Virus record (IMG/VR): IMGVR_UViG_3300030390_000616
Coordinates: 1 to 22,082 of that record
Direction: 5' to 3' (one strand)
DNA from: a virus
DNA length: 22,082 bases
Under the pieces are notes generated by a model. It saw only the letters and a program-made list of their open reading frames with translations. It did no database searches and was not told the DNA's origin. The position numbers and the translations under genes are program-made. Positions 10,112-22,082 of this stretch are shown here, in pieces; position 1 is the first letter of the stretch, and the number at the start of each line of letters is the position of its first letter.

Positions 10112-12706
10112 TTAAGCCGCCTTATTGTTTTGATTTAGGACATTAGCTGTGTTAGATGAAACCCCTACGGAAGCCGTATTAGGATCGTCTACAATTACTG
10201 TGTTGCTTGATGCTCCCAGAACGCTAGAGTTAGGTTCTTCTACAGTCACAGTAGTTATTGTACTTTCTGTTACGAATACTGCTCGTCTCTGTGTTGGAAT
10301 TATAACTCTTGATGTGCCAACAACAGGGCTAGGAGTAACAATAGGTGTTGCAGAAAAACCAGAAACCTTTGATAATGTAGGGCTACCTATACTAGGGTTA
10401 GCTGTTACAATAAAGTCAGCTAGTATAATTACATTCTGGTCAAATGCTGGGGTGCCAACCCTAGGGTCACTCGTTACGACATCAGAGGCTTGCAGTAGAT
10501 TAACTTGATCTACGTTAGGGCTACCTACCAATGGAGATGGTACGATAATACTCGTTGCACTTAAGCCATTAAGTTGAACTAAGTTAGCTTCTTGAACTAC
10601 AGGGCTAGGAGTAGCTATAGGAGACGCTGTAAGGCCGCTCTGTTGACTAATAGCAGCCGTTGCTACTGAAGGTACACCTGAGACAATTGAGGACGCTGTG
10701 AGGGCTTGTTGTTGAGTTGCGGTTGGGTTGCCAAGGTTAGGGCTAGGGGTAATAATGTCATCAGCTAGTATCCCGTCACTCTCAGAGAAGGCGGCAGTGC
10801 CTACTAGGGCGCTTGGGGTTACGATACTGTCTGCTGTTAGAGTATTAGGTTGATCTACTGATGGTTGACCTAAGACTGGCTGAGGGGTAGCAACAAAAGA
10901 CGCTGTAAGATCGGCAACTGAGGCTATAACAACTGACCCTAAGACTGGGCTGGAGGTTATAATTGCGTCAGCTACGAGGCCGCTTAAGTGGACTAAGTTA
11001 GGTTCGCCTACAGTAGGTATGCCTGTAACTATGCTGTTCTTAGTTAGCTCATTGTTCTGACGTAAGATTGAGCTTGTGAATACAGAAGGTGCTGTAACAA
11101 TGCTGTCAGCAGACATTGGGCTAGCTTGATCTAGCTTTGAGCTACCAACTTGTGCCGGAGCTGTCGTAATGTTATCCGCTAGAAGGGCGTCATTCTCGAA
11201 CAGGCTAGGACTACCAAGAGTGGGGATACCCGTTTCAATGTCGCCTTTACCTAAATCAAAGATTTGAATAAGGTTAGGTTCACCTACAGCAGGAATACCT
11301 GTAGCTATGCTGTTCTTAGTTAGCCCATTGTTCTGACGTAAGGTAGGTTCTGCAACTAGGGGCTGACCTGTGACAATACTTACGACATTAAGCGCAATGT
11401 CTTGGGATATTGCTGGGCTGTTAGCAAAGGTTTGACCAGAAGTAATAATATCGGCTAGGAAACCATCGCCCTTAGCAAGTTCTGGGGTACCTACGATAGG
11501 AATGCCAGCTTCTATGCTATTCTTGCCTAAAGCATTAACTTGACCAAAGGCAGATGTGCCTACAATCGGGGCTGACGTAGTAATATTATTAGCTAGTAAA
11601 CCATCACCTTCGCTGAAAGGAGCGACACCAACTAATGCAGCAGAAGTAACAATTGCATCAGCAGTTAGTGCATTTTCTGTATCAAGCTTAGGGATTTCAA
11701 CAATGGCATTGCCAGTTAGGATGACATCAGCTTGAATTGCACTCTGAGAGGCTATAGCAGGCTCGCCTACAACAGGAACGCCTGTAACTATGGTTCCCTT
11801 GCCTAACTCATTGACTTGAGAAAGTACAGCAGCCGCTACTACAGCACTGGCAGTAGTAATTGCCTCAGCAGAAAGTATGCCTACCTGAGTAAACAGAGGC
11901 TCATCAGCGAAAGCCTTATCAGTAGTAATGCTGGCGGGTAATAGCTGACCAGAAGATGCTAGTGTAGGTTCACCAACAGTAGGACTTGCAGTCTCTATGT
12001 TGTTCTTAGTTAGCTCATTGTTCTGATCTAGCTTTGAGCTACCAACCAGAGGGCTTGGTGCAGTAATACTTGTTGCAAGTAGCTCTCCGTTAGTAACTAC
12101 TTCTGGAGTGCCTACGAGAGCAGAAGCAGTAACAATACTGTCTGCCAATATTCCATGAGCTTGTGTAGCTGTAGGCTGACCTAGCACAGGACTTGAGGTA
12201 ACTAGGTTTGTCGCTACAAAGTCATCTTTCTCAGCGAACTGAGGGCTTCCAGCAAGAGGGGAACCAGTCTGAATGTTGTCTGATGACAAGTCATTGCCTT
12301 GAGCAACAGATGTAGTTCCTACAGAAGCACTAGGAGTAACTATAGAGGATGCTGTTAGGTCTTGATCTTGGGCAGCACTAGGGCTACCTACAGAAGCACT
12401 AGGAGTAACTATAGAGGATGCTGTTAGGTCTTGATCTTGGGCAGCACTAGGGCTACCTGCAAAAGAGTTAGAAGTAACAATACTATCTGCTGATACGCTA
12501 TTGACTTGTTCAAAGGTAGGTTCTTTAACCTCACAATTGCCTGTAACAATAGCACTACCAGTTAAGTCAACCACAAATACAAGGCTAGGTTCACCTACAG
12601 CAGGGTTTGGCGTAGCAATGGGGTTAGCGGTAAGCATTACATCAGGGTCATCAAATAAACCCGTTCTGTCATCAAAGTTACCAGATAAACTATCAAATAA
12701 TGGCAT
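10112..12706 (-). CDS. Giant 23-residue-repeat structural protein (34 repeats)
   Basis: An 864-residue low-complexity protein with no recognisable enzyme domain. Residues 1-24 are a head segment (LFDSLSGNFDDRTGLFDDPD). Residues 25-806 are exactly 34 units of 23 residues with no insertion or deletion. The consensus is L-T-A-x-S-I-V-T-x-x-P-x-V-G-x-P-x-x-x-Q-x-x-x. Residues 807-864 form a tail with two 17-residue units (TVTVEEPNSSVLGASSN-like). There is no signal peptide or cysteine cluster. Similar repeats occur in uncharacterised phage and prophage proteins I recall. The repeat should form a long beta-strand or solenoid rod, so a fibre, spacer or adhesin is plausible. The ATG at 12706 has AGGAG 10 nt upstream. 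It follows a terminator-like hairpin, so expression may be partly uncoupled from the genes before it. Confidence 0.8.
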   Translation of the reverse strand: MPLFDSLSGNFDDRTGLFDDPDVMLTANPIATPNPAVGEPSLVFVVDLTGSAIVTGNCEVKEPTFEQVNSVSADSIVTSNSFAGSPSAAQDQDLTASSIVTPSASVGSPSAAQDQDLTASSIVTPSASVGTTSVAQGNDLSSDNIQTGSPLAGSPQFAEKDDFVATNLVTSSPVLGQPTATQAHGILADSIVTASALVGTPEVVTNGELLATSITAPSPLVGSSKLDQNNELTKNNIETASPTVGEPTLASSGQLLPASITTDKAFADEPLFTQVGILSAEAITTASAVVAAAVLSQVNELGKGTIVTGVPVVGEPAIASQSAIQADVILTGNAIVEIPKLDTENALTADAIVTSAALVGVAPFSEGDGLLANNITTSAPIVGTSAFGQVNALGKNSIEAGIPIVGTPELAKGDGFLADIITSGQTFANSPAISQDIALNVVSIVTGQPLVAEPTLRQNNGLTKNSIATGIPAVGEPNLIQIFDLGKGDIETGIPTLGSPSLFENDALLADNITTAPAQVGSSKLDQASPMSADSIVTAPSVFTSSILRQNNELTKNSIVTGIPTVGEPNLVHLSGLVADAIITSSPVLGSVVIASVADLTASFVATPQPVLGQPSVDQPNTLTADSIVTPSALVGTAAFSESDGILADDIITPSPNLGNPTATQQQALTASSIVSGVPSVATAAISQQSGLTASPIATPSPVVQEANLVQLNGLSATSIIVPSPLVGSPNVDQVNLLQASDVVTSDPRVGTPAFDQNVIILADFIVTANPSIGSPTLSKVSGFSATPIVTPSPVVGTSRVIIPTQRRAVFVTESTITTVTVEEPNSSVLGASSNTVIVDDPNTASVGVSSNTANVLNQNNKAA
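10289..12634 (-). repeat. 34 tandem 69-bp units, in frame, without indels
   Basis: The coding segment for residues 25-806 divides into 34 consecutive units of 69 bp, which equals 2346 bp exactly. Units diverge in sequence but keep length perfectly. Conserved positions are I6, T8, G14 and P16, with a hydrophobic residue at position 1. Units 4 and 5 are identical at most positions, and units 20 and 24 are close relatives 276 bp apart. Confidence 0.95.
12318..12455 (-). repeat. Perfect 69-bp tandem duplication
   Basis: Bases 12318-12386 and 12387-12455 are identical at all 69 positions, encoding two copies of SPSAAQDQDLTASSIVTPSA and the following three residues. Neighbouring units have diverged widely, so this copy was made recently by unequal crossing-over or slippage. 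Confidence 0.95.
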
Positions 12707-17068: not shown

Positions 17069-17875
17069 CTAAAGTGTTATTGTCTGTGCCTTTGTTGCTA
17101 CTAGACCATCCAGCGTAGTTCCATTAAAGGTCTGGAAGTATCTATCAGAGCCACCAGCAGCAATATATCTGAACAGGGTTAGAGTGTCATTGTTATATAA
17201 GTAGTTGTACACAAAGCCTCCGAGAAGCGGAGTGTTTAGCGTAGGGGTGCTAGAGAAGGATGTCGTGAGGGTAATCCAGTTGTTAAGAGTACCTCCAGCA
17301 GAAATAAACCCAGTGTTGAACTCCTTGCCCCAAGGGCCGAGTATGATGAGTTCACCAGCATCGCTAGTCTTAGTCCCCTTGATACCAAAGGTTCCTACAG
17401 GAGCGCCCGTGATAGTGTTGTTCAGGGTTGTACCTTCTTTTGTAATACTAACCTTACCAGCAATGTCTAGGTCACCATCATCATAAGTTATGACTAACAT
17501 ATTCTCGCTATTAACGGATATGTTTTTTACGCCCTTACCTTTTTCCCCAGTCTCACCTTTAAGACCTTGTTGACCCTGAAGTCCATCCTTACCGTCTACT
17601 CCGCTAGGACCAACTGTTCCGATCTTGCCTTGCTTCCCACGTCTACCGTCGAAACCATCTGCTCCGTCTAGGCCATCTTGTCCAGTAGCTCCTGTAAGGC
17701 CATCTACAGCGTCCTTACCGTCTTTTCCTGATACACCCTGCTTACCAACCTCTCCACGCTCTCCTGTGGCTCCTGTGAGGCCCTGTGAGCCATCCTTGCC
17801 ATCTACCCCATCAACTACCACAGGAATAGCTTTGTCGATCAGAACCTTAAATAGTGCTAAGTCAGTAGGCTTCAT
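17069..17875 (-). CDS. Collagen-like phage fibre protein
   Basis: A 268-residue protein. After a short helix (PTDLALFKVLIDKAIPVVV) comes a Gly-X-Y stretch from Gly23 to Gly113, about 31 triplets, with one Gly-to-Ala break at 56 (KDGKDAVDG). This would form a collagen-type triple helix and so make the protein a trimer. Residues 116-138 (VKNISVNSENMLVITYDDGD, then LDIAGKV) are the beta cap that usually follows collagen stretches in phage fibres. The C-terminal 130 residues form a beta-rich tip with no recognised enzyme motif (GPWGKEFNTGFISAGG; NNDTLTLFRYIAAGG). The ATG at 17875 has AAGGAAG at 6-12 nt and lies 1 nt from the portal stop. The helix at the N-terminus probably anchors to the virion. 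Confidence 0.88.
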   Translation of the reverse strand: MKPTDLALFKVLIDKAIPVVVDGVDGKDGSQGLTGATGERGEVGKQGVSGKDGKDAVDGLTGATGQDGLDGADGFDGRRGKQGKIGTVGPSGVDGKDGLQGQQGLKGETGEKGKGVKNISVNSENMLVITYDDGDLDIAGKVSITKEGTTLNNTITGAPVGTFGIKGTKTSDAGELIILGPWGKEFNTGFISAGGTLNNWITLTTSFSSTPTLNTPLLGGFVYNYLYNNDTLTLFRYIAAGGSDRYFQTFNGTTLDGLVATKAQTITL

Positions 17876-19301: not shown

Positions 19302-20675
19302 TTATTTAGATAAGCCCTTAGCACTTGAGTAAGCGAGGGTCAATTTTGGTTTAGCGTAGCCTCCAAGACATAACTCAGTTAAACACCACACAGCGGCATC
19401 AAGTCTATCTGGAGAACCAATACGTCCGAGGGGTTGCCACGTACGGTATTGCGTCTCTAGTTCATTGAGGTTAGCACCATCAGGGGGGTTAGTTACGTGT
19501 TTAACTAAACCACGCTCATAGAGGGCTGATACTGGCTCTGCACGGGCATACTTACCTCGTGAAGCCCTTACAGCTTTATACGCTACGTTATCATCAATGT
19601 TGTGTATGGTTGTCTTAACTAGATCACCACCCTGATTGACCTCAGCTACGATACGGTCAGCTTCGTAATGGTGATACAATTTAATTGCTTTTGCTGCCCA
19701 TCCTGCTGGTGAGAGCTTGTCAGTGTAATCGCCTAGTACGTAGGCAACACCGCTGATATCTACCCCAGCTACTACTATGCCTGTCATGTCGCTCTCAGCG
19801 TTTGCTGTGACCGCAGGGTCAAGTGCCACGACAATACGAACTAGGTCTGGTAGGTCTTCATGCTTTATAGCAGCATTGTCTAGGGTTTCAGTAGTCCACA
19901 GAGCGCCTTCAGCTTCTTCTAGGACTTCTGCGTATAATTCTTGTCTACCAATGCGTGTGCCTTCGTACTGATCGGATACAGCAGTAAGGTAGGTATCAGC
20001 TAGGTTGGCAGCATTATCAAAGGTTGTACCTCTAGTAATATGCGTCTTAGGGTTCTTTAGTATCTCTCTAACGAGCTTGGTAGGCTTGGGTGTAGTAGTA
20101 ATGCAAACTCGTGGGTGTTTACCAAGTCTGAGACAGAACTGAAGCATTTGCCATGTGGCTTGGTCCCGACCCCAAGCTGCTAGCTCATCGCACCAAGCTG
20201 CACTAAACTGAGGACCACGTAAGCGTTCTGGTTCCTCTGCTGAGTAGAACTCAACTCTAGCTCCGTTAGCCCACTCTAGTGTACGTTTGGTTGGCGACCA
20301 GATAGGAAAGCCCATCTCTTTGCCCTTATGGGTCTTATCACCCTTCCAGCAAACATTAAGGAAACCTGACTCACCTTGAACCATAACACGTATGATGTCT
20401 GAGTTAGTAGAGGCGATACAAGCTATGCGCTTATGTCCAGCCTTGACCTGCTCACGAACCCATTCAGCACCACAGCGGGTCTTTCCCCAACCCCTTCCCG
20501 AATTGATGAACCAGTTGTTCCAGTCTTTGCCGACAGGCTGTATCTGTTCAGGTCTAGCCCAGAAGTCCCAGCTATGCTGGAGTTCGTCTAGTTTCTCTGG
20601 GCCAAGAGCTTTGAGCGCAGCTTCGACCTTATCCTGTGGTAGTGATCTGAGGGTAGCTGCTGTTAGCTTTTGCAT
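19302..20675 (-). CDS. terL: Terminase large subunit
   Basis: A 457-residue DNA-packaging motor and nuclease. The ATPase domain has WDFWARPEQ (36-44), Walker A SGRGWGKT (59-66), a Walker B-like FSAAWCDE with Asp163 and Glu164 (157-164), and a coupling motif TTTPKP (193-198). The nuclease domain has VALDPAVTANAESDMTG (283-299), giving candidate metal ligands Asp286 and Asp296, then RIVAEVNQGG (341-350) and SPDRLDAAVW with Asp426. The overall pattern is that of the terminases of alphaproteobacterial phages and gene transfer agents. Length is normal for the family. The ATG at 20675 lacks a good ribosome binding site and lies 47 nt inside the HNH gene, so translation may be coupled to it. Confidence 0.95.
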   Translation of the reverse strand: MQKLTAATLRSLPQDKVEAALKALGPEKLDELQHSWDFWARPEQIQPVGKDWNNWFINSGRGWGKTRCGAEWVREQVKAGHKRIACIASTNSDIIRVMVQGESGFLNVCWKGDKTHKGKEMGFPIWSPTKRTLEWANGARVEFYSAEEPERLRGPQFSAAWCDELAAWGRDQATWQMLQFCLRLGKHPRVCITTTPKPTKLVREILKNPKTHITRGTTFDNAANLADTYLTAVSDQYEGTRIGRQELYAEVLEEAEGALWTTETLDNAAIKHEDLPDLVRIVVALDPAVTANAESDMTGIVVAGVDISGVAYVLGDYTDKLSPAGWAAKAIKLYHHYEADRIVAEVNQGGDLVKTTIHNIDDNVAYKAVRASRGKYARAEPVSALYERGLVKHVTNPPDGANLNELETQYRTWQPLGRIGSPDRLDAAVWCLTELCLGGYAKPKLTLAYSSAKGLSK

Positions 20676-21141
20676 TGCGTAATTTGTCCATCGGGGTTTG
20701 GTAGTCTCGTTTGTTGCTCTTGCGGATATTGGTACTAGAGGCTAATAGCTGTAGGTTGTGAGCAGTGTTTAGTCCACAGATTTCATCGTGAGTTAATGGC
20801 TCAATGTGATCTAAGTGTAGGTTGCTTGCTGTCAGAGTATTAAGTCTCTTAGCCAGTGCAGACATACCCTTAAGGGCTTCTAAGTCCGTGGTAGGAGAAC
20901 CGTCTGCAATCCTACGCTTTGCACGGTAGGCACGACCAAAGTTATCTTTATTCTTCTTCTTGTAAGCGGCAACCTTCTCAGGGTTCTCTTTACGCCACTC
21001 AACACGCCACGCTTCATTCTGAACGTAATTACGGCGACTAGACTCTACGTTCTTACAGGATCGTGTACAATACTGTGCGTGAGACTTCTTGTGTGATATG
21101 TCTACGCCGCACGTATGGTTGTTACACGTTCTCTTCATCAT
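20629..21141 (-). CDS. HNH endonuclease between the terminase genes
   Basis: A 170-residue protein. The N-terminus has a likely zinc-binding set, Cys6, Cys11, Cys25 and Cys29 (C-x4-C, C-x3-C). A basic region follows (WRKENPEKVAAYKKKNKDNF, 49-68) that could bind DNA. The HNH motif is at 109-144: HLDHIEPLTHDEICGL, then NTAHNLQLLASSTNI and RKSNK. Such enzymes nick or cut DNA; beside terminase genes they often assist terminase cleavage, while others are homing endonucleases. It overlaps terS by 20 nt and terL by 47 nt. The first of two adjacent ATG codons (21141 or 21138) is used here; both have only a weak ribosome binding site. Whether it is a packaging partner or a mobile intruder cannot be told from sequence. 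Confidence 0.88.
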   Translation of the reverse strand: MMKRTCNNHTCGVDISHKKSHAQYCTRSCKNVESSRRNYVQNEAWRVEWRKENPEKVAAYKKKNKDNFGRAYRAKRRIADGSPTTDLEALKGMSALAKRLNTLTASNLHLDHIEPLTHDEICGLNTAHNLQLLASSTNIRKSNKRDYQTPMDKLRNAKANSSYPQITTTG

Positions 21142-21529
21142 CTTTATTAAACCCCAGTAAATTCATTAATGTGTCTGCTGCTGCTTCGTCTACTTCTGGG
21201 TCTACAACCTGATCAACTTCGTTGACTGTGTTTTGAACCGACCAACCACCCTTAGATCGTAGGAATAACTCTTGGCTCTTGAAGGTGACACCATCTTTGG
21301 GATCACCATGTAGAGCTTGGTCGATAACCCTAGCGCCGATTGCTCCGTTGATCTTCGCACGTTCAGCTTCCATTGCTGGTCCGTACCATTTGTACAAGGT
21401 AGACAGACTACGAGGAGCATCATTCATGTGCTGGATGGATACAATGATCTGACGAATAGGGACAGCCCCTCGAATCATCTCAAGCACTGCCTTCTCAACG
21501 AGCTTGCTGTATGGTAGCTTCTGCAGCAT
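21122..21529 (-). CDS. terS: Terminase small subunit
   Basis: A 135-residue protein that should recognise the packaging site and guide the large subunit. Residues 20-50 look like a helix-turn-helix (RGAVPIRQIIVSIQHMN, then SLSTLYKWYGPAM). Residues 54-78 form a helix, and VTFKSQELFLRSKGGWSVQN (81-100) matches the oligomerisation segment of phage TerS ('f..q..fLk..gGW'). The C-terminus is acidic (DEAAADTLMNLLGF) and probably contacts TerL. It starts at the ATG at 21529 with only weak upstream purine content (GAAAGA about 10 nt away). It is the first gene after the leader region, whose direct repeats and palindrome could be its DNA target. Confidence 0.85.
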   Translation of the reverse strand: MLQKLPYSKLVEKAVLEMIRGAVPIRQIIVSIQHMNDAPRSLSTLYKWYGPAMEAERAKINGAIGARVIDQALHGDPKDGVTFKSQELFLRSKGGWSVQNTVNEVDQVVDPEVDEAAADTLMNLLGFNKDDEENV

Positions 21530-21555
21530 GGTGACAATCTTTCTGTTAAAGTAGC

Positions 21556-21568
21556 GGAGCTACGCTCC
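21556..21568 (-). other. Small hairpin in the terS 5' leader
   Basis: GGAGC (21556-21560), a 3-nt loop TAC and GCTCC (21564-21568) form a 5-bp GC-rich stem, flanked by TTAA on both sides. It lies 27 nt before the terS ATG in the transcript. It is not followed by a U-run (GCTACTTTAACAG), so it is not a plain terminator; it may influence translation of terS. Confidence 0.4.
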
Positions 21569-21587
21569 TTAACGACAATCTAGATGA

Positions 21588-21663
21588 TTACTTAAGAAGG
21601 TAATTTAATCTGTTGTAACAAGTTTGGAAAGTTGTTACAACAGAATTTACTTCAGAAGGTAAT
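21588..21663. repeat. Pair of 17-bp direct repeats flanking a palindrome
   Basis: TTACTTAAGAAGGTAAT (21588-21604) and TTACTTCAGAAGGTAAT (21647-21663) differ at one base and lie 59 bp apart. Similarity continues past the ends (TTAATCTG versus CCAGATTG, weakly). They bracket the palindrome at 21609-21644. Iterated sites close to terS are typical of terminase binding sites (cos/pac), which is the suggested but unproven role. Confidence 0.75.
21609..21644. promoter_or_regulatory. 36-bp near-perfect palindrome
   Basis: TCTGTTGTAACAA (21609-21621) is the exact reverse complement of TTGTTACAACAGA (21632-21644). The inner bases also pair partly (TTT against AAA), leaving a two-base centre, so 16 of 18 positions match. 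Each arm contains the smaller palindrome TTGTwACAA. No U-run follows on either strand, which argues against a plain terminator. It could be an operator or a packaging element; GTTGTAACA occurs again at 22068-22076. Confidence 0.7.
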
Positions 21664-21762
21664 CCAGATTGTGCTAAATAAGTTCCCCAAGTAACATCAG
21701 CAAGATCACGTCTTACATATTTCAGTGCTAAGGTTCATCTTGGTTGTTCTTGGGGAGTATGT

Positions 21763-21972
21763 GTTATACCTGAGTTAATGCCTCGAAGTTATAACGACAA
21801 TCAGTTATACAACGATGTGGTTATATAATCTTGTTGAGTAACTATAGTTATACTTAAGTTATTCTAGTAAGTTTTTGTAACTGGTTGTGGTTGATGTTTC
21901 TTATGTAGTAACTTAAGTTAGTCTCTTATGTCTCTTACTTACTTATATAGGGTCCAAACGGAAATCTTATAC
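21763..21972 (-). promoter_or_regulatory. Cluster of GTATAA(C/G) motifs, possible -10-like or operator sites
   Basis: On the minus strand GTATAAC occurs at 21769-21763, 21810-21804 and 21853-21847, and GTATAAG at 21972-21966. The first three are spaced 41 and 43 bp. TATAAC/TATAAG resemble bacterial -10 boxes, but I find no good -35 box at 16-18 bp from any of them. They may be phage-specific promoter elements or half-sites. Low confidence, since the region is AT-rich. Confidence 0.3.
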
Positions 21973-22082
21973 CTAAATAATTTACTTTATTTGCAACTAT
22001 TTTATACATCGTTGATAACGCACGATTCTTTCTTTTGCTATTTTGGGGTTGACATTGGTCTTCATTGGTTGTAACAGGCCCT

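Follow-up and report, generated by a model that had tools for sequence, protein, structure and literature searches.

The origin of phage lambda lies inside the O gene, whose product reads binding sites located in its own coding sequence. The sites proposed here would likewise lie inside their reader's own gene and near replication genes, but each gene holds just one dyad, which some genomes have copied ahead of terS, and there is no sign of origin function. In related phages we found a 16-bp dyad with a 7-2-7 layout like that of parS and a ParB-like protein predicted to carry a ParB-CTPase fold beside an HTH, as in ParB-parS and Noc-NBS. One B. subtilis site, parS-359, is reported to lie within parB (PMC4442127), and the phage sites resemble it in being inside the putative binder's own gene. 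ParB/Noc specificity is attributed to a small number of HTH-region residues (PMC7383237), and phages are described as encoding ParB-fold proteins (PMC12704722). Unlike parS, the phage sites are hypervariable: they occupy one codon position just before the HTH, vary along with the recognition helix and, in some genomes, have a duplicate ahead of terS. Moreover, the product of ORF276, the gene carrying the dyad in the phage analysed here, is not recognisably ParB.

Three further systems are comparable in part. KorB, of the KorB-KorA pair of plasmid RK2, is described as a ParB-fold regulator that silences genes with a partner protein (PMC11790492). The cassettes of phages that have the dyad copied ahead of terS are two-gene units as well, but their second protein is without a good match (ORF148 in PHROG, NCBIfam and Pfam; ORF142 in Pfam). 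In Cluster A mycobacteriophages, the specificity of immunity repressors and their stoperators diversifies between relatives, and these can stop elongation; stoperators are many, 13 bp long and asymmetric, according to the part of the report cited (PMC6550527). Here too a candidate regulator would have cognate sites that diversify between relatives, but one or two dyads were found, including one within the gene for the regulator itself. Cluster O mycobacteriophages share with the present phages a spaced dyad (17 bp, 7-3-7) and an encoded ParB-like protein; they differ in having more than 30 copies per genome, and the part of the report cited describes no link to the gene's HTH (PMC4351075). Among the matches listed from open-licence PMC papers, none described embedded, co-varying sites before terS.

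The terS leader and its insertion

The window, that is, the whole stretch of DNA analysed here (22,082 nt), is bases 1-22082 of G000, a virus scaffold of 28,621 bases with N gaps directly past the window end and more further along. Its late and structural genes form a leftward run starting at terS, and the replication module lies outside the window. By TerL, the closest named phage is CRP-6 (59.8% identity), which suggests that the window phage belongs to the CRP-6 group, described as ubiquitous in the ocean (PMC6918029). The ORF at 21122-21529 is probably terS, from its position beside terL and its homology to the CRP-6 gene before terL, annotated there as 'hypothetical protein'. The putative TerS had no match in PHROG (E 0.001), Pfam (E 1) or NCBIfam (E 10), and window 21100-22082 had none to phage records by direct DNA similarity. 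Between terS and terL there is an HNH/endonuclease VII-like gene (20629-21141); in CRP-6, terS and terL are adjacent. Elsewhere in the window are an 864-aa ORF (10112-12706) with many short repeats (..ADSIVTPSPxVGSP..) and no PHROG match, and a collagen-like ORF (17069-17875). The features of the leader are listed below in window coordinates.

21122-21529, minus strand: putative terS, 135 aa, start at 21529, heading the late/structural run and preceded by the dyad
21530-22082, minus strand: untranslated terS leader
21588-21604, minus strand: 17-bp direct repeat TTACTTAAGAAGGTAAT, terS-proximal copy (ATTACCTTCTTAAGTAA in terS sense), ancestral-looking leader sequence
21605-21649, minus strand: 45-bp insert, identical to G000:27635-27679 on the opposite strand, within ORF276
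21609-21644, no strand: 36-bp dyad from repeat and hairpin scans, proposed binding site of the ORF276 protein
21615-21618, no strand: variable tetrad GTAA (TCCT in contigs L054 and L021)
21635-21638, no strand: matching tetrad TTAC (AGGA in L054 and L021)
21647-21663, minus strand: second repeat copy TTACTTCAGAAGGTAAT, one mismatch, apparently duplicated with the insertion; the same pair flanks the L054 insert

An earlier note on this DNA had described two 17-bp repeats with one mismatch, 59 bp apart and about 60 bp before terS, around a near-perfect 36-bp palindrome with TTGTwACAA cores, and each part of this description was borne out. The repeats are 94% alike, at a start-to-start distance of 59. 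The inverted arms (21609-21625 and 21628-21644) are 94% alike, with 16/17 paired and 2 nt between them; over the full 36 bp, 16/18 positions are paired, as computed on the identical gene copy. Direct reading gave the cores TTGTAACAA at 21613-21621 and TTGTTACAA at 21632-21640. The outer repeat lies 59 bases, and the dyad 80, upstream of the terS start base at 21529. With 17-nt arms and loops of 0-20, this was the best hairpin in the window (16/17 pairs) and the only one scoring at least 11, while 100 first-order Markov simulations of the window reached a maximum of 15/17, in five cases. The note's remark that no U-run supports a terminator also agrees with the sequence, where the stem is A+T-rich and a T-run is absent on both flanks.

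Leaders upstream of terS were read in nine IMG/VR loci with terS relatives and in CRP-6 (L018); L012 is the same as L011, and L013-L015 are the same in practice. The leaders of L009, L010, L011 and L017 have in common ATTACCTTCTTAAG..ATCATC..TTGTCGTTAA, with changes in L009 and L017. All four hold a single repeat unit and lack the 36-bp dyad; the repeat core ATTACCTTCTTAAG occurs once in L010, L011 and L017 and as a variant in L009. The leaders of L013, L016 and L018 are too divergent to show the unit. Aligned to G011, the window leader matched in two blocks (query 8-433 and 479-514), which are separated by the 45-bp insert. Because the most similar terS leaders hold one repeat copy and lack this dyad, the dyad before terS is, as judged from these alignments, an insertion of 42-45 bp. 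Since the closest leaders are single-copy, the repeats would be a duplication around the insert and not a conserved recognition pair; conservation in relatives, which the note had suggested checking, was not found for the pair. An assembly artefact, considered in view of the N gaps in the scaffold, was rejected, as the same insert and repeats, with other arms, occur in the IMG/VR contig L054.

Two other parts of the leader drew attention. A structured-looking RNA element (21687-21760, minus strand; CCCCAAG..AACCAAGAYGAAYCTT..GATCTTGCTGATG..CTTGGGG) is present in relatives down to CRP-6, with two-sided changes in 6 of 15 predicted pairs among nine sequences and several pairs broken in some rows. 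Rfam, searched with ten sources, gave no family at the gathering score, this element included, and nine weak sub-threshold leader matches. Window 21850-21956 is 77% alike to G000:27213-27308, before ORF276, with ACTTAAGT repeats and the motif GGACCCTATATA in both leaders; this common stretch is possibly a shared phage promoter for the sigma-like gene product.

Cassettes carrying the dyad and copies before terS

The 45-bp insert recurs inverted at G000:27635-27679 (45/45 identical), inside ORF276 (276 codons; L006:6727-7557). These are the only two copies in the 28.6-kb scaffold, and each gives TAAATTCTG...CAGATTAA when read in the direction of the gene it belongs to. ORF276 heads the replication module and, with the next gene, ORF148, makes up an accessory cassette flanked by a sigma-like gene (Sigma70 region 4) and a primase-helicase gene, an order seen in L008; in CRP-6, G010 and G011 the cassette locus is visible but empty. 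ORF276 had no match among phages, plasmids or GTDB genomes, none of weight in Pfam, PHROG or NCBIfam and no significant PDB sequence match, and its structure model was poor (pLDDT 40).

An IMG/VR pattern scan with four stem bases per side left free returned four contigs. In L007 and L008 the dyad lies inside ORF276 and its arms are those of the window; L021 has TCCT/AGGA instead of GTAA/TTAC, also inside ORF276. L054 carries TCCT/AGGA in its terS leader, at the same place and between the same two repeats, mismatch included; L021 and L054 are contigs of one metagenome and may or may not be one genome. These two versions, the only ones found for the ORF276-type site, differ by 4+4 paired bases, and the loop is unchanged. 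Within each version the gene and leader copies agree, over 45/45 bases in G000 and 43/43 between L021 and L054. When the last 300 nt before terS were aligned, the window and L054 differed in the eight stem bases, in a few isolated positions and in a small hairpin near the start codon. L054 has this hairpin (window ~21549-21573) in the opposite orientation to the window, the outcome expected of a local template switch. Between the ORF276 genes of G000 and L021 (573 nt compared), 18 of 24 nucleotide differences are inside 59 nt at codons 107-126, that is, the dyad and the codons following it. The palindrome in ORF276 exceeded synonymous recoding (445 and 168 of 200,000). Dyad pattern scans of IMG/VR matched in ORF276 or the terS leader only, and none was found in GTDB genomes; a scan for the doubled TTACCTTCTNAAG pattern returned L054 and two contigs without a terS match (L055 and L056).

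In G005, a ParB-like gene unrelated to ORF276 is found, with a second small gene, where the cassette would lie between the sigma-like gene and the primase gene. No likeness was seen between ORF148 and ORF142 or between ORF276 and the ParB-like protein. The longest word common to the G005 terS leader and the rest of its contig was 27 bp, consisting of a 16-bp dyad and flanks, and lies inside the ParB-like gene. Scanning for relatives of this protein gave 23 loci, all with a primase match downstream. A search of ~96 nt per locus placed the best 16-mer dyad at the same spot in every one of the 23, namely 37 nt ahead of the HTH's HA codon and in the same phase, with 7/7 pairs in 14 loci, 6/7 in eight and 5/7 in one. 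The palindromes exceeded synonymous recoding in 15/17 sequences (P 0.004-0.03 each; sum of log10 P over all 17, −30.5), and those of L067 and L077 were within synonymous chance (P 0.19 and 0.16). The residues encoded by the dyad change freely (VSNDT, VTDVT, PSNEG, TPNGA) while the dyad is kept, and they fall in or beside a low-confidence stretch of the structure model (residues 125-136).

The AF2 model of the ParB-like protein (pLDDT 75) indicates a ParB-CTPase fold, with a VIA Z of 10.8 to M. xanthus ParB (82 residues aligned, rmsd 2.0) and a Foldseek match to Spo0J (E 6.7e-5, TM 0.29/0.41); KorB was also among the structural matches. By sequence, Pfam found HTH_3 in 16/17 proteins and no ParB model, PDB sequences gave nothing significant, and the only phage match was a partial one to Leptospira phage LE1 (two records, 27% covered). 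The alignment also shows conserved stretches, GRHRY and, further on, R.H, that resemble ParB motifs. The N domain and HTH are common to these proteins, which have at least three different-looking C-terminal modules.

Thirteen distinct terS leaders were examined for copies. A leader copy of the cassette-gene dyad of the same record was present in G000 (45 bp), G005 (27 bp), L063 (34 bp) and L071 (28/30 bp), opposite in sense to the gene copy in G005 and in the same sense in G000, L063 and L071. The L054 leader dyad matches the L021 gene dyad, and TATGCAATCTTGCATA in the L010 leader equals the gene dyad of L078, a contig from another metagenome. A second dyad, TACACCATTTGGTGTA, is retained in the L063 leader at the position where L010 and G005 have theirs. 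Copies were absent from L069 and L075, where the cassette is present, and from L009 and L013, where the cassette locus is outside the contig. In cassette-free L016 (G010), L017 (G011) and CRP-6 the leader had no copy, and the 550 nt preceding terS contained no perfect 7-2-7 dyad; a different inverted repeat is present in G010 ~570-620 nt before terS (L016:7378-7429). Allowing at most two mismatches, the ParB-type 16-mer recurred on its own contig only before terS, in G005, the identical G006, L063 and L071; no second copy was found in the other 19 loci, of which just L069 and L075 hold terS. Thus three of five distinct ParB-type genomes with terS in the record have the dyad copied, and these are the three with a second cassette gene. 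Among the nine genomes with both places visible, copies occur in 4/4 with a second gene (ORF148 or ORF142) and 0/5 without (Fisher 1/126, post hoc and hand-calculated); by cassette presence alone, the split is 4/6 versus 0/3. In L071, a small ORF, read by eye, apparently lies between the copy and terS. The L075 leader has two other dyads, GTCGATTTTTAATCGAC and GTTAGCTGGTAAGCTAAC, just before terS, for which no matching word occurs elsewhere in the locus.

Co-variation of site arms with the recognition helix

Co-variation was measured on 17 non-redundant sequences of the 23 ParB-type loci, which have 10 distinct 5' arms. Genes with the arm TGTATCA encode SRPT[VI]ARW in 5/5 cases, those with TACGCCA encode GHRTVNRW in 3/3 and those with TCCCTCA encode G..T.ERW in 2/2, and genes sharing arm and helix can have a background identity as low as 38%. 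Arms and recognition-helix residues were correlated (r = 0.76, p = 5e-5; partial 0.76), and the correlation with background was 0.12 for the arms and 0.04 for the helix. Arms were compared with neighbouring DNA as well, giving r = 0.145 (p = 0.12) for the 21 nt between dyad and HTH, 0.01 for the 30 nt upstream and 0.065 for the 45 nt after the helix. The HADALGV codons, which adjoin the recognition helix, were weakly correlated with the arms too (r 0.27, p = 0.02), a point against the binding-site reading. Hitch-hiking of the whole block was considered as the source of the arm-helix link and was unsupported, given the value for the intervening DNA. An arm-helix link without a corresponding link to the DNA in between fits the prediction of co-evolution between a binding site and its reader, not exchange of a whole block.

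Candidate functions of the dyad

The dyad before terS is very probably a DNA-binding site. It is probably the site of the phage's own ORF276 protein, by analogy with the ParB-type cassettes, duplicated ahead of terS to control the late genes, and we lean towards late-gene control as its use. By the same analogy the ORF276 protein would bind DNA, and its locus, layout, copying and co-variation suggest that it works as those cassettes do, with copying presumably from ORF276 to the terS leader. Part of the ORF276 coding sequence, holding the original site, would have been copied into the leader with a 17-bp target duplication. ORF276 protein would bind the leader dyad as double-stranded DNA and most likely impede transcription entering terS and the late genes, as a roadblock or by clamp-type repression, and the site inside ORF276 would give autoregulation. 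In the relatives, a ParB-fold protein and 16-bp parS-like sites would do likewise. Points against this reading are the cassettes of L069 and L075, which have no leader copy, the palindromes of L067 and L077, which are within synonymous chance, the missing family match and poor model of ORF276, and the small number of ORF276-type site versions, two in all. Each of these steps is plausible because, in the parts of the reports cited, KorB silences with a partner (PMC11790492) and parS is found within parB (PMC4442127).

The earlier note had left a choice between a packaging start and a control region. The control region is retained and the packaging start is not: since the dyad duplicates a site that lies within ORF276, in an accessory cassette, and since the arms co-vary with the helix in relatives, it is most likely a control site. 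Packaging sites are often located before terS, and three ParB-type cassettes likewise place their copy there, as would be expected of a pac or cos mark read by TerS or a cassette protein and selecting the phage's own DNA. Such a role is nevertheless unlikely. Cassette-free CRP-6, G010 and G011 lack a copy, so the dyad is not a required cos/pac element of the group, and L069 and L075 have the cassette and no terS copy. The arms follow the cassette protein, whereas close TerS relatives (87-100% to the L011 TerS) stand behind different dyads or none (L011, L063 and L069).

It is improbable that the hairpin acts as RNA in the terS and ORF276 transcripts, whether as an attenuator, a protein-binding hairpin or by mRNA-mRNA pairing. 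The leader RNA does fold well (−24 kcal/mol, z −6.1), as does the L021 gene hairpin (−18.2, z −5.7), the stem changes are compensated with the loop unchanged, and the G000 copies have the same sense in both transcripts. The G005 leader copy, however, runs opposite to the copy in its gene, although the shared sense of the copies in G000, L063 and L071 makes orientation by itself a weak argument against RNA. The G005 dyad is built around a 2-nt centre and does not stand out as an RNA fold (z 0.18), a U-run is absent, and pairing alone requires neither identical stems in leader and gene nor tracking of the recognition helix. A dyad in duplex DNA is the simpler common denominator.

Concerted evolution alone, with short-repeat recombination homogenising the gene and leader copies and no selection on binding, would account for copies of 43-45 bp that are identical in both versions, but it leaves unexplained why arms track the recognition helix when the intervening DNA does not and why the dyad is kept while the encoded residues change; we consider it very improbable. 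Highly improbable, finally, is a mobile palindromic element or recombination site without a regulatory role, like REP/RPE elements or a loxP-like site with 13-bp arms: the insertion with a 17-bp duplication, the inverted 45-bp copy in two places and the arm-spacer-arm layout would suit it, but the scaffold holds two copies and not a REP/RPE-type dispersal, scans place the dyad in ORF276 or the terS leader only and nowhere in GTDB genomes, recombination at the ORF276 copy would break ORF276, and the ParB-type sites are fixed at one codon position and do not move.

If the dyad is a binding site of the cassette protein, a wider reading is possible, which we offer tentatively. The cassettes of these marine phages may form a re-targetable DNA address system for self/non-self discrimination, with the address written in the reader's codons, swapped by one crossover and copied before terS. 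The address would lie tens of base pairs from the recognition helix, so that a crossover could exchange reader and address jointly, and the unrelated ParB-fold and ORF276 proteins would use the same trick at one locus. Fast switching among near-identical phages might then suggest discrimination between co-infecting phages, through immunity, selective late expression or packaging.

The ParB-type set, with 10 distinct 5' arms among 17 non-redundant sequences, is a natural collection of matched helix/site pairs, and the DNA-recognition code of this ParB subfamily is therefore directly testable. Taken with the leader copies, these observations point to a late-gene switch of changeable specificity in CRP-6 relatives. 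If conflict between co-infecting phages drives the switching, it would amount to an immunity-like layer.
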